This document shows positions 11,235 to 30,927 of a stretch of 30,927 bases of DNA, piece after piece (within the stretch, counting starts at the first letter, position 1; each line of letters begins with the position of its first letter). The position numbers and the translations under genes are program-made. The stretch comes from a virus. The stretch lies in IMG/VR virus record IMGVR_UViG_3300048586_000849, positions 1 through 30,927 of that record; one strand, written 5' to 3'. Under the pieces are notes generated by a model. It searched no databases. It had not been told where the DNA came from and saw only the letters and a program-made list of their open reading frames with translations.

Positions 11235-13676
11235 TCACATGCCCCGGCGGCCCAGCGACACCGCGCGGGCGATGTCGGCGGCGACCTGCGTGCGGGATTG
11301 CCGGAAGCTCTCGGCATCGCGTGCCATGATCGTGACGTTGACAGTCGAGGCACTGGACTGGTCGTAACCTGCAGCCTCGCGCCGCGACAGAACACGTTCG
11401 CCCCGCTGCAGGATCGCAGGAACCTCGTCAGGCCGCAGCCCGGCCCAGCCACCGCTGTGCATCCGGGGGGCGCCCGCGAAGGCCAAGGCGGGGACCATAC
11501 GACCCGGGCCCGGCGTTCCGACTGTCCCGCCCGCGTGCAGGATGTTGGCGAAGATCCCGCCTGATCCGCCCAGCGCGCCAGACAGGGCTCCGGCGATCGG
11601 CCCCAGGATGAACCGCCGCGCGGCCAGTTGCGCCAGATCGGCGATCATCGACGTCACCAGATCCCGGAAGTCGAGCTTGCCGGTCTTCACGAAGTCACCC
11701 ACCGCCCGCTCGGCCGAAGTGAAGGCCCCGACCAGCGTCTGGCCGATATCGCCGCCGATGTCGCGGGCCTTCGTCGCATAGTCGGCCAGCGCCGCCGTCA
11801 CGGCAGCCCAGCCAGTCAGCGCTTGTTCCGAGCCTTCGGCCGCCGCAGCCCCGGCATCGCGCGCTGCTGCCCCGGCGCCGGTCGCGGCGGCGGCTGTCTC
11901 GTCCAGTTCCAGACCCAGCGCATCCGCCGAGGCAGCGGCATCCGCCAGTGCGGCCTCAGCCTCCGCCCCGGTCCCGGTCACCGCATCACGCAGCGCCTGC
12001 CAGCTGGCGAGCGGTCGTCCAGTCGCATCGGCCAGCAAGCCTGCGGCCTCGCGATAACCGTCGGCCCGGGCGCGGGCATCGGCGGCCATCGCGCCAAGCC
12101 CGAGGTCGGGCGGTGCGAGGTAGGTCTGCGACAGCGCCGCCGAGAAGGCTTCCGCCGCAGCTGTTCCTGCTGCCGCAGCCGACCCCTCAAACGGGTTGTC
12201 GATCCGGCCCAGAGTCAGCGGGTCGAGCGTGCCGATCCGGACACCTCCTTCGCCCACCGCCCAGTCCGGCAGAAGGTCGAGCGCCGCGTTCAACCCGTTG
12301 ATGAACCCGTTGATGCGGGTGACGACACCGTTCAGCATCGCTTCGACGCCCGAGATCAGTCCGTTTGCAGCCTGAAAGGCAAAGTCCCCGATGGCACCGG
12401 GCAAACTGCCCCAGATCGCCACGGCGGCATCAAAGGCCCCCTGAAACACCGCCGCTGTCCGGTCCCCAAAACTGACGACACCGGCGATGGTGCCTTCCAG
12501 CGCAGAAAGTCCGGCCGCCTTCAGACCCTCCCAGCCAGCGGCCATGTTGGCGAAGGCAGCGTCGAGCGACAGGCTGATACGGGACCAGACCTCCTTGGCC
12601 AGATCGCCGAGCAACCGGAAGGCTTCGCCTACACCGCCGACCCGCTCCACCAGCCGGGTGAACTGGTAGACCAGTTCCCCCGCACCCACGATCAGTGCGC
12701 CGATCCCGGTCCGGATCAGTGCCCCGCGCAGGAAGACCAGTGCGGTGGCCAGACCGCGCACCGAAAGGGCTGCAACCGCCATGCCCGCGACCCAGCGCCC
12801 TGCCATGAAGGCGACGAAGGTTGCGGCATAGGTCGCGAGGCGGCCGAGGTTGTCGAACACCAAAGTGATGGCACCGCCGAGCGGCCCTGTCCCCCGCGCG
12901 ACATCGGCCAGTGCGTTCGCCACCGTCTCCAGCGCCGGGGCGACGGCGGCGGTCAGGCGGTTGGTGAGGCCAAGCCAGATCTGGCTCAGCTTCGCTATTG
13001 CATCGCCGGTGCGTTCGATCTGGGCCGCATCCGCCGCGCTGACCGCCACCCCGAAATCCTGAACATCCTGAGCGGCCTCCCGCAGGGTGGCAGCGTCGAT
13101 GCGAAGGAACGCGAGTGCCGCCCGGTCACCGAAGAGGTCAGACGCCACCGCCGCGCGCTCGGCCTCGGGGACATAGCGGGCCAAGGCATCCTGGATGGCC
13201 ACGATGCGCTGGTCGAGCGGCATCGCCTGCAGTTCGGCCGCCGTCAGGTTCAGGCGCTGCAGGGCGCCGACGGCCGAGCCAGACCCAGCGGCGGCTTCCG
13301 ACAGCCGCGTGGTCAGCTTCTTCGTGGCCTGTTCGATCTCGCCCATCGAGACACCGGCCAGCTCTCCTGCCCATGTCAGCACCTGCAGGCTTTCGACGGT
13401 GGTCCGTAGCGAGGCGGCCATGTCGGCCTGCGCGCCGATGACATCCAGGCCCGAGCGCACCATCGCCACGCCCGTGGCCACGGCTGCTGCCGTCACGGCC
13501 GCCAATGCGATCCCGGCTTTGCGGGCGAACGCGCCAAGCCGCGAATTGGCAAGCTCCATCTCGGAGGACAGGCGGCCAAACCCGCGCGTGCCCGCCTCGC
13601 CGATGCCTTCCAGTTCCGCGCGCACCTGGCGGCCGCCTTCGGCGACAAGGCGGACGGAGACGCGTTTCTCGGCCAT
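11235..13676 (-). CDS. Tail tape measure protein (lambda H position)
   Basis: An 813-residue, Ala-rich, largely helical protein. It opens with the common tape-measure start (VSVRLVAEGGRQVRAELEGI), has an early hydrophobic helix at about 53-72, a longer hydrophobic stretch at about 270-330 and a C-terminal block at about 630-700 (LVGAFTSAERAVGDFVKTGK, FRDLVTSMIADLAQLAARRF) resembling the lambda-type tape-measure C-terminal domain. It sets tail length and is expected to be ejected with DNA; at the usual ~0.15 nm per residue the tail would be roughly 120 nm (inference). It begins 3 bases after the stop of the T frame of the tail chaperone gene and has no good Shine-Dalgarno of its own, pointing to coupling. 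Confidence 0.93.
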   Translation of the reverse strand: MAEKRVSVRLVAEGGRQVRAELEGIGEAGTRGFGRLSSEMELANSRLGAFARKAGIALAAVTAAAVATGVAMVRSGLDVIGAQADMAASLRTTVESLQVLTWAGELAGVSMGEIEQATKKLTTRLSEAAAGSGSAVGALQRLNLTAAELQAMPLDQRIVAIQDALARYVPEAERAAVASDLFGDRAALAFLRIDAATLREAAQDVQDFGVAVSAADAAQIERTGDAIAKLSQIWLGLTNRLTAAVAPALETVANALADVARGTGPLGGAITLVFDNLGRLATYAATFVAFMAGRWVAGMAVAALSVRGLATALVFLRGALIRTGIGALIVGAGELVYQFTRLVERVGGVGEAFRLLGDLAKEVWSRISLSLDAAFANMAAGWEGLKAAGLSALEGTIAGVVSFGDRTAAVFQGAFDAAVAIWGSLPGAIGDFAFQAANGLISGVEAMLNGVVTRINGFINGLNAALDLLPDWAVGEGGVRIGTLDPLTLGRIDNPFEGSAAAAGTAAAEAFSAALSQTYLAPPDLGLGAMAADARARADGYREAAGLLADATGRPLASWQALRDAVTGTGAEAEAALADAAASADALGLELDETAAAATGAGAAARDAGAAAAEGSEQALTGWAAVTAALADYATKARDIGGDIGQTLVGAFTSAERAVGDFVKTGKLDFRDLVTSMIADLAQLAARRFILGPIAGALSGALGGSGGIFANILHAGGTVGTPGPGRMVPALAFAGAPRMHSGGWAGLRPDEVPAILQRGERVLSRREAAGYDQSSASTVNVTIMARDAESFRQSRTQVAADIARAVSLGRRGM

Positions 13677-13679
13677 GGG

Positions 13680-14356
13680 TCAGGAACTTTCCATCTGTTC
13701 GTTGAGCTTGCGCACCATCGCAGCCTCGATCTCGGGGAGCAGTTCGGCGGCGATGAGGGGGTCGATGCCCAGCGCATCGGCTAGCGCCAGCGCCGCGCCC
13801 ATGTCCCAGCCGAGCACGGCGCCAGGGACCACACGCAATTGCCCGCCAAGACGGCTGACGAGATCCCAGATCTGCCAGCCTTCCATCGTCTGCGGGCGGT
13901 TCAGTCGAGCGGGGCAGTCGGGGCAGCGGCCGCCGGGGCCCTCGCAGGGTTCGCAGGCCGCGCAGTACCTGTCGCCCCCGCCGAAGGACCAGTCGGCAAG
14001 GGCGCGGAGACGTTTTTTTCCGCATCCAGCAGCAGGCCCTTGGCGACGTACCGGGTCTGGAACGCCTCGAAGACCGGCCAGATGTTCAGAAGCGCATCGA
14101 TGCCCTCGGGCGTGACCGGGACGGCATCGCCTGCGTCATCGCCAACACCCTCCCAGTCCAGCACGGCACGCCGGGCGACAGCTTTCGCCATGGCCAGCGC
14201 CAGTTCCTCCTGCGTGGCGGTGTCCGGCAGCGCCTCGATCACCGGGTCGGCGCGGGCCGAGACCATCAACGCGGTGGTCAGAGGTGCCACATGCAGGCGG
14301 AGGCCGGGGGCGAGTTCCAGCCAGTCAGGGGATGCGGTCAGGTTCAGCCGGATCAT
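13680..14356 (-). CDS. Tail assembly chaperone G-T fusion made by -1 frameshift
   Basis: Joint product of two overlapping frames. Codons 1-115 are read from 14356 in the G frame; at A_AAA_AAC (14018-14012) a -1 slip continues from 14012 to the stop at 13680, adding 110 residues for about 225 in total. The -1 frame has no stop between the slip site and the downstream open frame, which ends MEGWQIWDLVSRLGGQ...NEQMESS. The added part starts with a cysteine cluster (YCAACEPCEG...RCPDC, five Cys within 17 residues, possibly metal-binding). In lambda, gpG and gpGT made this way coat the tape measure protein and recruit tail-tube subunits. The downstream frame has an ATG at 13886 but no Shine-Dalgarno before it, supporting synthesis by frameshifting rather than independent initiation. 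Confidence 0.85.
13901..14356 (-). CDS. Tail assembly chaperone (lambda gpG-like), zero-frame product
   Basis: A 151-residue protein directly downstream of the tail tube gene, where lambda gpG lies. The start at 14356 overlaps the tail-tube stop by one base (TGATG). The N-terminal ~115 residues look like a small helical chaperone domain (DWLELAPGLRLHVAPLTTAL, then a DNIWPVFEAF-like helix), followed in this frame by a low-complexity Ala/Pro tail (TARPANPARAPAAAAPTAPLD-like), which suggests the tail after the slip site is under little constraint. It carries the A_AAA_AAC slippery heptamer at codons 113-115. Expected role: binding the tape measure protein during tail assembly; gpG-type proteins are absent from the finished virion. 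Confidence 0.82.
   Translation of the reverse strand: MIRLNLTASPDWLELAPGLRLHVAPLTTALMVSARADPVIEALPDTATQEELALAMAKAVARRAVLDWEGVGDDAGDAVPVTPEGIDALLNIWPVFEAFQTRYVAKGLLLDAEKNVSAPLPTGPSAGATGTARPANPARAPAAAAPTAPLD
13973..14018 (-). promoter_or_regulatory. Programmed -1 frameshift signal: A_AAA_AAC heptamer plus stem-loop
   Basis: The minus-strand heptamer A_AAA_AAC at 14018-14012 is in the correct phase (last base of codon 113, then codons 114 and 115). After a 7-base spacer comes a 12-bp stem (14004-13993 pairing with 13984-13973; 10 Watson-Crick pairs and two U-G wobbles) closing an 8-base loop. Heptamer type, phase, spacer and stem all match known bacterial and phage -1 frameshift elements, and the slip joins exactly the two frames expected for lambda-like G and T. 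Confidence 0.85.
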
Positions 14357-15297
14357 CAATAGGCCTCCACGTCGTTGATCAGGGTGGCGGTGCACATGCG
14401 GCCGAGGGTGTTGTCGCGCGCGGCCTGCCAGTCGAAGGTCGCCTGCACACCCTGTGGCCCGGAAACCTCGATCCGGGGACGCGGCAGGTAGACGGCGTGC
14501 ACCTTGAAAGCGAAGCTCTCGCCCGAGGGCAGGCTGTAGCCGAACTCCAGCTCGCAGGGATCGCCATTGATCGCCTGCGTCACCAGCGTCTGGTCGGCGA
14601 AGCGCACCTCGATCCGCCCGGTCAGCGCGGCGATGGAGGGATCCGCGCCATCGATGCGACCGTCACCCCGGATCGTCTCGATCCGGTCGAGGTTGTTGGC
14701 ATAGGTGATCTCAGCCGAGACCACGTTACCCAGTGCCGAGCCGTTGCGGGTAATGGCCCCGTTGAAATGGCCGAAGCGCTGCAACTCAATGGCGGCGGGC
14801 GTGCCAACGCTCGAGGTCGGCCCCACGGTCTCGCCCTGCGCCACAAGCCGTGCCGTCGCTGTCAGCAGACCCGACCGCTGCATCTGCCAGGACAGCTGGT
14901 CCAGCACGCAGCCGGTGTACATCGCGTATCGCGGCACCTCTGGCATGCCGGTCTCGATCGCCATCGAGGGCAGCGACCAGTTCCCCGACTGGAACGCATG
15001 GGTGTAGGGCGCATCCGCGCCGGTGGTCACTGGATCCCCGAACGCCGCCTTCAGCCAGAAACCGAAGGCCGCCACATCGATCGGCACCACAACATCGCCG
15101 TCCGCCGTCACTGCGTCCTTGATCGGGGCGAGCGGATCGCGGCCGTAGCCAAGAAGCTCGCTGTTCAAGAGCGGCTGTTCTGATCCCAGCGAGGTGCTGG
15201 CAAAGGGTACCCGCGTGAAGCCGCCCGAGGGCGACGTGCCATAGGTATTCTCGAACGCAAGCGCCATTTGCGCCCGCGCGCCTTGTGCGCGTGCCAT
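14356..15297 (-). CDS. Major tail tube protein (lambda V position)
   Basis: A 313-residue protein resembling the phage tail tube family of Rhodobacterales siphophages (MARAQGARAQMALAFENTYG, FKVHAVYLPRPRIEVSGPQG, ending DNTLGRMCTATLINDVEAY). It is rich in beta-strand patterning, as expected for a subunit that stacks in hexameric rings around the tape measure. AGGAG lies 7 bases before the ATG, the best ribosome binding site in the tail block, consistent with high expression. It sits between the tail terminator gene (26 bases upstream) and the G/GT chaperone gene (1-base overlap), exactly as lambda V sits between U and G. Confidence 0.88.
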   Translation of the reverse strand: MARAQGARAQMALAFENTYGTSPSGGFTRVPFASTSLGSEQPLLNSELLGYGRDPLAPIKDAVTADGDVVVPIDVAAFGFWLKAAFGDPVTTGADAPYTHAFQSGNWSLPSMAIETGMPEVPRYAMYTGCVLDQLSWQMQRSGLLTATARLVAQGETVGPTSSVGTPAAIELQRFGHFNGAITRNGSALGNVVSAEITYANNLDRIETIRGDGRIDGADPSIAALTGRIEVRFADQTLVTQAINGDPCELEFGYSLPSGESFAFKVHAVYLPRPRIEVSGPQGVQATFDWQAARDNTLGRMCTATLINDVEAY

Positions 15298-28336: not shown

Positions 28337-29668
28337 CTAATCGCCTTGGACTCGGTTCGCCTTCCGCCCAGTCGCCATCTCCCACCGCCGGACGGCGACG
28401 TCGCAATAGACTGGGTCCAGTTCCACCGCGCAGCAGTGCCGCCCGGTGCGTTCCGCTGCGATCAACTGGGTACCGGAGCCGCAGAAGGGCTCGAACACCA
28501 GGTCGCCGGGGTCAGTGAAGGCCTCCAGCACTGCCTCGACTAGAGCCACCGGAAACACGGCAGGGTGCGATCCGGCGGCGCCGAGCCCGCCCTTGTGGCG
28601 CATGATGCGGAAGACAGAGTCGGGGATGCGGTGGCTCTGGATCGCATTGCCGAAGCCGGTCTTGCGATGGACCGTGCCATCGGCCCCGCGCAGCCCACCG
28701 CCGCCGAGGGTCTCGCCCGCGTGCTTGCTCTCGACCGTCTTGTTCGGCTTCCGGGGCTGGCGGTTGAAGTGGAAGATGAACTCGTGCGACGGCGCCAGCC
28801 GCCCATTCCAGTCCCCGGGCAGGCCCGGCCCCTGGTCCCACACATACCATCCGAACCGCCGCCAGCCCTGTGCGCGCATCCAGTCGACCCAGCCCTCCCA
28901 GTAGGGGATCCACTCGCCATCGCGGTGGACGAGGCCGAGGTTTACGAGCAGTTGGGCATCGGCGGTGACAGGTGCCGCGGCGAAGACGCCCTGCATCAGC
29001 GCATCCCAATCGCCGACCTTTTCCTTCGCCGCGCCATAGTCGCGCTGCTGGGCATAGGGCGGGGAGGTGAAGAGGAGCGAGGCCTGTGCCCCATACATCA
29101 GCCGGGCCACCACAACCGCGTCGGTCGCATCGCCGCAGATCAGCCGGTGGTCGCCCAGCGCCCAGATGTCGCCGGGCCGGGTGATCGGGTCGGCCGGGGC
29201 CTCGGGGATGGTGTCGGCGGTGTCATCATCGATGGGCGCGCGGTCGTCGGTGTCGTGCAGCAGGGCGTCCAGCTCGTCCTCGGGGATCCCGATCAGCCCG
29301 AGGTCGAAGTCCTCGGCCATCAGGCCTCGCAGTTCTTCCAGCAGCAGCGCCTCGTCCCACCCGCCCAGTTCGGTCAGCTTGTTGTCGGCGATCCGATAGG
29401 CGCGCCGTTGCGCCTGGGTCAGATGACCCAGCACGATGACCGGCGCCTCAGCCAGCCCCAGTTGCGCAGCGGCAAGGACGCGACCATGGCCCGCGATCAT
29501 CTCCCCATCCGCGGCGACGAGGCAGGGAACGGTCCAGCCGAATTCCGCCATGCTGGCGGCGATCCTTGCCACCTGGTTGGCGTCATGGGTCTTGGCGTTG
29601 CGGGCATAGGGACGCAGGCGGGCGAGGGGCCAATGCTCGATCTGGCCGGGCAGGAGGGGCGCGTTCAT
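28337..29668 (-). CDS. ParB-like / DNA methyltransferase fusion, SPPY type
   Basis: A 443-residue protein. Residues ~8-110 are a ParB/sulfiredoxin-like domain (LRPYARNAKTHDANQVARIA, DGEMIAGHGRVLAA, RRAYRIADNKLTELG) and residues ~165-443 a beta-class DNA methyltransferase with catalytic SPPY (202-205, LLFTSPPYAQQRDYG) and the AdoMet-binding FCGSGT motif near the C-terminus (395-400). The order, catalytic motif before AdoMet motif, is that of N4-cytosine/N6-adenine methylases; SPPY is more often linked to N4-cytosine. No cognate restriction enzyme is visible, so it is an orphan phage enzyme, probably protecting phage DNA. The start at 29668 overlaps the stop of its paralogue as ATGA. The target sequence cannot be told from this window. 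Confidence 0.9.
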   Translation of the reverse strand: MNAPLLPGQIEHWPLARLRPYARNAKTHDANQVARIAASMAEFGWTVPCLVAADGEMIAGHGRVLAAAQLGLAEAPVIVLGHLTQAQRRAYRIADNKLTELGGWDEALLLEELRGLMAEDFDLGLIGIPEDELDALLHDTDDRAPIDDDTADTIPEAPADPITRPGDIWALGDHRLICGDATDAVVVARLMYGAQASLLFTSPPYAQQRDYGAAKEKVGDWDALMQGVFAAAPVTADAQLLVNLGLVHRDGEWIPYWEGWVDWMRAQGWRRFGWYVWDQGPGLPGDWNGRLAPSHEFIFHFNRQPRKPNKTVESKHAGETLGGGGLRGADGTVHRKTGFGNAIQSHRIPDSVFRIMRHKGGLGAAGSHPAVFPVALVEAVLEAFTDPGDLVFEPFCGSGTQLIAAERTGRHCCAVELDPVYCDVAVRRWEMATGRKANRVQGD

Positions 29669-30927
29669 GCCGCGAGCCGCTTGGCCTTGAGGACGGCAAA
29701 CGTCTCACCGGTGTCCTCCAGCACGGCATCCTGGCCCGTGAACGACTGCCAGCGCTCGATGGCCACATCGACATAAGCCGGGTTCAACTCGACCCCGTAG
29801 CAGACACGGCCGGTGGTGTCGGCCGCGATCAGTGTGGTGCCGGATCCCATGAACGGTTCATAGACCGCCTGGCCGGGGCTGGAGTTGTTCAGGATGGGGC
29901 GCCGCATGCATTCGACCGGCTTCTGTGTGCCGTGCACGGTGTCGGCATCCTGATCCCGGTTGGCGATCTGCCACAGCGTCGTCTGCTTGCGGTCCCCGGC
30001 CCAATGCCCCTTGCCCTTGGCGCGCACCGCATACCAGCAGGGTTCGTGCTGCCAGTGATAGTCGCCACGGCTGAGGACCAGCCGGTCCTTGGCCCAGATG
30101 ATCTGCGACCGGATCGCGAAACCTGCAACGGTCAGACTGTCCGCCACCGTCCCGGCGTGCAGCGCGCCATGCCAGACATAGGCGACGTCGCCGGGGAACA
30201 GGGCCCATGCCTCACGCCAGTCGGCTCGGTCGTCGTTCAGCACCTTGCCGGTGCGTTTGGTCTTGGCCGCGCCCGCCTGGTTGCGCCAGGAGGGATCGTA
30301 CTCCACGCCATAGGGCGGGTCGGTGACCATCAGGAGCGGGCGCACATCACCCAACAACCGCCCGACCACGTCGGCCGAGGTGCTGTCGCCGCAGATCAGC
30401 CGATGCGCGCCCAGCTGCCAGAGGTCGCCCGGCACCGACACCGGCGTGACCGGCAGCTCCGGAACATCGTCCTCGCCCTCGACTGGACCATCCCCGCCCA
30501 GCGCCTCGGGATCCCGCAGCAGGGCGTCGAGGTCGTCGTCACTGATGCCCAGAAGAGTCAGGTCGAAGTCCTCGGCCAGCAGTCCCGCGATCTCGTCGCG
30601 CAACACGGCCTCGTCCCATTCGCCCAGTTCCGTCAGCTTGTTGTCGGCGATCCGGTAGGCCCGGCGTTCCGCTTCATCCAGATGGCTGAGCCGGATCACC
30701 GGCACTTCGGTCAGCCCGAGCATGGTGGCGGCCAGCACGCGGCCGTGGCCTGCGATCAACTCGCCATCGTCGGCGACCATGCAGGGCACGGTCCAGCCGA
30801 ACTTCGCCATGCTGGCGGCGATCTTCGCCACCTGGTCGTCGCCATGCATCTTGGCATTGCGGGCATAGGGGCGCAGCCTGTCAATCGGCCAGGTTTCGAT
30901 CTGGCTCGGCGCGAACACGAGGTCCAT
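29665..30927 (-). CDS. ParB-like / DNA methyltransferase fusion, DPPY type
   Basis: A 420-residue paralogue of the next gene. The ParB-like domain (~8-110) is nearly alignable with it (PYARNAKMHGDDQVAKIAAS, DGELIAGHGRVLAATMLGL, RRAYRIADNKLTELG), whereas the methyltransferase part differs: catalytic DPPY at 203-206 (MVTDPPYGVEYDPSWRNQ) and FMGSGT at 359-364. DPPY is the usual motif of N6-adenine methylases. Its ATG is the last triplet of the window, and the paralogue's N-terminus aligns with this one, so the gene is probably complete. It overlaps the next gene by four bases. Upstream promoter and Shine-Dalgarno lie outside the window. Confidence 0.9.
   Translation of the reverse strand: MDLVFAPSQIETWPIDRLRPYARNAKMHGDDQVAKIAASMAKFGWTVPCMVADDGELIAGHGRVLAATMLGLTEVPVIRLSHLDEAERRAYRIADNKLTELGEWDEAVLRDEIAGLLAEDFDLTLLGISDDDLDALLRDPEALGGDGPVEGEDDVPELPVTPVSVPGDLWQLGAHRLICGDSTSADVVGRLLGDVRPLLMVTDPPYGVEYDPSWRNQAGAAKTKRTGKVLNDDRADWREAWALFPGDVAYVWHGALHAGTVADSLTVAGFAIRSQIIWAKDRLVLSRGDYHWQHEPCWYAVRAKGKGHWAGDRKQTTLWQIANRDQDADTVHGTQKPVECMRRPILNNSSPGQAVYEPFMGSGTTLIAADTTGRVCYGVELNPAYVDVAIERWQSFTGQDAVLEDTGETFAVLKAKRLAA

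Follow-up and report, generated by a model that had tools for sequence, protein, structure and literature searches.

The window, which is the whole 30,927-base record, carries on its minus strand the genes for a tail tube protein, a tail assembly chaperone pair and a tape measure protein, in the order tail tube - G - T - tape measure, so that two overlapping frames (G and T) lie between a Phage_tube_2 gene and the tape measure gene. The tail tube (major tail) protein gene (313 aa, 14356..15297; Pfam Phage_tube_2, E 9.4e-57) overlaps with its stop the start of G in the sequence TGATG. G itself, the zero-frame chaperone of 151 aa (14356-13901), begins with an ATG at 14356 and stops at 13903-13901; its residues 3-137 match the PHROG 313 profile ‘Tail assembly chaperone’ (E 1.6e-21), and a search of the Pfam models with G returned no match. 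The tape measure protein gene (813 aa, 11235..13676) was assigned through PHROG 8462, tail length tape measure (E 6e-213), and Pfam Tape_meas_lam_C. Elsewhere in the record the head module is lambda-like (gpA-type terminase, lambda-type portal, S49 peptidase, Phage_cap_E) and the tail tip is GTA-like (GTA_TIM, Rcc01698_C, NlpC/P60), and the closest named relatives are Rhodobacterales prophages, for example of Paracoccus yeei.

On the same strand, the slippery heptamer A_AAA_AAC (14018-14012) sits in phase inside codons 113-115 of G (GAA AAA AAC), where the run of A's is seven long (14019-14013). AAAAAAC is present as a single copy in the record, both strands included, at a G+C content of about 67%; we estimate from base composition that the chance of finding one in phase within the ~40-base stretch at the site is ~1e-4. 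The heptamer is followed by a 7-nt spacer, GTCTCCG (14011-14005), and by a stem-loop of 12 bp with an 8-nt loop (14004-13973), whose arms CGCCCTTGCCGA and TCGGCGGGGGCG enclose the loop CTGGTCCT and form 10 Watson-Crick and 2 U-G pairs. The -1 frame opens with the codon CGT (first base at 14012) and runs for 110 residues to a TGA at 13682-13680, 3 bases ahead of the tape measure ATG (13676). We refer to this extension (14012-13680), which is recognised as an open frame, a conserved protein and a predicted fold, as T. The positions that the earlier note had given for the heptamer, spacer, stem and -1 frame, along with the distance to the tape measure gene, proved exact to the base.

Residues 1-115 of G are common to G and to a predicted G-T fusion of ~225 aa (115 residues from G and 110 from T), with the slip junction falling within ...LLLDAEKNRLRALADW..., while the last 36 residues of G constitute its zero-frame tail (13901-14011, minus strand). 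This tail is rich in Ala, Pro and Thr, and spans 30 or 36 codons in most relatives. In four distant relatives (L254, L262, L274 and L258) the zero-frame stop comes one codon past the heptamer, so that G ends at the slip site, which indicates that the 30-36-residue tail is dispensable.

The stem-loop was assessed by folding energy, conservation, covariation and synonymous constraint. The 70-nt stretch around the site folds with z = -2.5 relative to dinucleotide shuffles, 3 of 200 shuffles being as good, but the stem alone reaches a z of only -1.6 in its G+C-rich setting, and conservation is therefore the stronger evidence. The stem could in principle be nothing more than a consequence of two coding frames overlapping at high G+C, having no role and leaving the heptamer to work alone, and a stem-alone energy that is unexceptional for the composition would agree with this. 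The pattern of variation does not. All 12 pairs are kept in 91 of 113 distinct close-to-middle relatives. Diversity at four-fold sites is 0.17 over T codons 1-14, 0.41 over T codons 40-110 and 0.43 in upstream G, and for the four-fold third positions of T in paired columns it is 0.15 versus 0.45 in upstream G (Mann-Whitney p 4e-4); third positions of the overlap that lie outside the stem vary more, although the contrast between stem and non-stem inside the overlap alone is weaker (p 0.054). When C sites of the stem change, they do so almost wholly to T, which still pairs with the facing G (97 of 101 changes, versus 337 of 1019 upstream), and mismatches are tolerated at one stem position, the third base of T codon 12.

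Divergent relatives extend this picture. Across 15 divergent rows, 82% of stem cells are paired, compared with 42-53% when the arms are slid, and changes on both sides of the stem were counted in 10 cells against 3.0 in shuffles. A similar both-side count (11) was obtained with the arms slid by +1, which fits a shift of the stem register in some relatives. RNAalifold, run on the 15-row alignment, returned a consensus of only 7 pairs, part of it displaced by one column; since this short consensus is due to stem register shifts among relatives, we counted the named structure directly. At this position, distant prophages such as L255-L257, L267 and L278 form different hairpins, often strong ones (z from -3 to -6), whereas in L259, L262, L266 and L274 the folding is no better or little better than that of shuffles. 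The 12-bp stem with its 8-base loop, as first described, is present here, with the qualification that relatives build the structure from other sequences and to other lengths. Compensatory changes above the shuffle level and the rebuilding of the stem from other sequence in distant relatives, together with the constraint at paired positions, make a stem without function very unlikely.

Relatives of the locus were gathered from viral contigs, bacterial genomes and phage records, and all were placed by a T profile to give 160 distinct contexts. A_AAA_AAC stands at the identical codon in 151 of these phage and prophage contexts, and other canonical heptamers take its place in a few more, G_GGA_AAC in three (L081, L258 and L259) and A_AAA_AAA in two; these are counts of sequences and overstate the number of events, because the relatives are not independent. 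A canonical heptamer is absent from the remaining four. In L127 the site is covered by Ns, and in L162 the G frame upstream is not recognisable. L208 has GAA GAA AAC (GAAGAAAAC) in place of the heptamer with the remainder of the site intact, and possibly represents a sequencing error or else a natural variant that has lost the slip. The fourth, L260, is the most distant relative (T 28-30% identical) and has AGGGGGAAG at the site. An alignment of homologues had been proposed as a check in the earlier note, with absence of the heptamer as the contrary outcome; with 151 of 160 contexts unchanged and 5 more canonical, that outcome did not materialise.

The run of seven A's raises a second alternative, namely that RNA polymerase stutters on it, so that transcriptional slippage would act instead of or besides ribosomal frameshifting. 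In bacteria, polymerase slippage can occur on long A runs, and a Roseisalinus antarcticus prophage, seen twice among the relatives (L042 and L091), carries an A8 run whose extra base puts G and T into one frame at the DNA level, as a continuous G-T open frame of 241 residues (L042, around 2480-2495). The extra A may be a sequencing slip or a sign of decay, or G and T may be naturally fused in this prophage; the prophage is included in the 151, since the heptamer pattern was located by reference to T. We nevertheless judge polymerase slippage to be highly improbable. First, the G_GGA_AAC of L081, L258 and L259 suits slipping by ribosomes and not stuttering by the polymerase. Second, the A run is limited to six in many distant relatives (CAAAAAAC). 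Lastly, the hairpin is conserved at a fixed spacing, the arrangement that usually stimulates ribosomes to slip.

T shows no conserved start of its own. The sole ATG in its frame between the slip site and residue 50 is at 13886, has no Shine-Dalgarno sequence and encodes Met43 of T, a position at which relatives mostly carry E, P, Q, V or another residue. An ATG in the T frame before residue 50 occurs in 33 of 189 distinct loci, leaving 156 without one, and any T-frame start codon with a Shine-Dalgarno-like match occurs in just 6 of the 189. It had been claimed from the sequence that the downstream frame lacks a Shine-Dalgarno of its own, and that homologues with an independent start driven by one would contradict a frameshift; the claim is upheld both at ATG 13886 and among the relatives, the 6 loci notwithstanding. 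That T should be a short gene in its own right (starting, for example, at ATG 13886 and giving the 68-aa DUF7697 protein that gene callers would produce), with the overlap reflecting translational coupling only, has in its favour that this ATG lies in frame 15 bases past the beginning of the G stop, that Pfam and PHROGs keep the C-terminal half as a stand-alone family and that the annotation of Synechococcus phage Sc-Yong805-1 has two separate genes, but we rejected a separate T start as scarcely credible, since neither a start codon nor a Shine-Dalgarno is conserved, the 42 residues ahead of ATG 13886 include the best conserved residues of T, and the heptamer and stem would be left unexplained.

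The heptamer, the stem, the conservation of T and the lack of a conserved start support the earlier proposal that a -1 programmed frameshift joins the two chaperone frames. With the slip itself inferred from such sequence features, we are strongly confident that the tail assembly chaperone pair of this long-tailed Rhodobacterales phage uses programmed -1 ribosomal frameshifting of the standard kind. Most ribosomes would produce the 151-aa G, and a minority, held up by the hairpin just downstream, would move back by one base on A_AAA_AAC while tRNA-Lys occupies the P site and tRNA-Asn the A site, and would continue into T to yield the G-T fusion. By analogy with lambda, the G part may bind the tape measure protein and the T part may recruit the tail tube protein encoded by the gene just upstream, in which case the efficiency of the slip would set the ratio of G to GT. 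At bacterial slippery sites AAC in the A site is less usual than AAG, and this was counted against the frameshift reading, as were the few relatives without a canonical heptamer and the Roseisalinus prophage with its single G-T frame. The mechanism is already well known and already annotated in relatives, making this an ordinary but well-supported example; its value is as a clean and widely conserved case of tail chaperone frameshifting, most probably at A_AAA_AAC, in Rhodobacterales phages and prophages, in which the stimulatory hairpin has comparative support.

Homologous pairs are present in eleven deposited Rhodobacter phages, where they are annotated as tail assembly chaperone genes, and in RcKemmy, the one inspected, the frames are joined. 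This phage of the RcC-cluster (genes 15/16) shares with our locus a homologous G (39% identical), a homologous T (52% identical) and the gene order; its annotation gives one start and two products, the long one joined, and its stem lies at the same place as here, although its heptamer is G_GGA_AAC and not A_AAA_AAC. The frameshift is treated as usual in a paper on these Rhodobacter phages (PMC8601537). A homologous pair is likewise found in Synechococcus phage Sc-Yong805-1 and Nostoc phage Nsp-JY21, with an 8-bp plus 8-bp stem and an A-rich slippery run that reads A_AAA_AAA/G where ours reads A_AAA_AAC; both are deposited as two separate genes. For hundreds of prophages the annotation rule would be to join both frames.

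In lambda itself, a low level of -1 frameshifting yields a G-T fusion; the binding partner of G is the tape measure protein, and that of T is the tail tube protein (PMC5009743). Our site shares with lambda the order V-G-T-H, a -1 slip (here predicted) towards the 3' end of G and a T frame that reaches the tape measure gene (PMC5009743). It also shows the features of the lambda-type G/GT class (Xu, Hendrix and Duda 2004), with overlapping frames, an in-phase X_XXY_YYZ near the end of the first frame and no own start downstream. The two differ in their heptamers (GGGAAAG in lambda, A_AAA_AAC here) and in a four-cysteine motif that T has here and lambda T does not. Descent from lambda gpG or gpT was not found by sequence, as hhalign detected no similarity to either (probabilities 0.05% and 1.3%). 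The label ‘lambda-type’ is therefore apt for mechanism and gene order but finds no support from sequence for protein descent, and the locus adds one more case to a familiar class, with a protein family of its own. Acinetobacter phage Loki offers another parallel, with a -1 frameshift proposed at AAAAAAC between gp12 and gp13 (PMC5313236). The Loki heptamer adjoins the gp12 stop, as in L254, L262 and L274 but not here; a sequence match to Loki was not found. By predicted fold, the Loki tail assembly chaperone is one of the structures closest to our T.

The T protein is conserved across relatives, with R1, W8, Y16, C17, C20 and C33 invariant over 34 divergent rows. Its N-terminal part, previously described as a linker, is more than that, for it carries conserved helices and a four-cysteine motif, YCxxC...CxxC (13914..13967, minus strand), that extends from Tyr 16 to Cys 33 and comprises Cys 17, 20, 30 and 33. 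The motif is present in 254 of 270 T proteins, and the rest mostly have YCxxC and a later C at different spacing. Judging by this pattern of residues, the cysteines possibly bind metal. A literature search on tail chaperones and zinc yielded nothing relevant, and matches to cytochrome c (E 0.15) were set aside as probably chance hits of the CxxC type. The C-terminal half of T (13683..13832, minus strand) matches DUF7697 (PF24752) and phrog_11212 with E-values of 1.1e-27 and 5.6e-28, the DUF7697 match scoring 96.2 bits against a curated cut-off of 27; the name DUF7697 was not found in the literature searched. Both families are without known function in the libraries, and gain a setting here as the C-terminal half of a probable frameshift extension and not as separate genes.

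We modelled T with AlphaFold2 from an alignment of 34 rows, two rows from annotated phage records being left out (pLDDT 88, pTM 0.79; weakest near residues 21-30). No solved structure compared by fold with the model was similar, and no credible solved relative emerged by sequence. A comparison with predicted viral structures gave, among its best named hits, four tape measure chaperones as well as the tail assembly chaperone of Loki, with probabilities of 0.69-0.99 and E-values of 0.07-0.43; as the E-values are all above 0.05, the matches form a consistent pattern without being significant singly. We tentatively postulate, with rather less than even confidence, that the lineage concerned here, made up of alphaproteobacterial phages and some cyanophages, has a distinct T family in which a four-cysteine, possibly zinc-binding knuckle is joined to the DUF7697 helical domain, so that the metal site would occur only on the rare GT.

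Away from the tail genes, two neighbouring N6_N4 DNA methylase genes occupy the record edge (28337-30927, minus strand), and an apparent toxin-antitoxin-type cargo pair was also observed.
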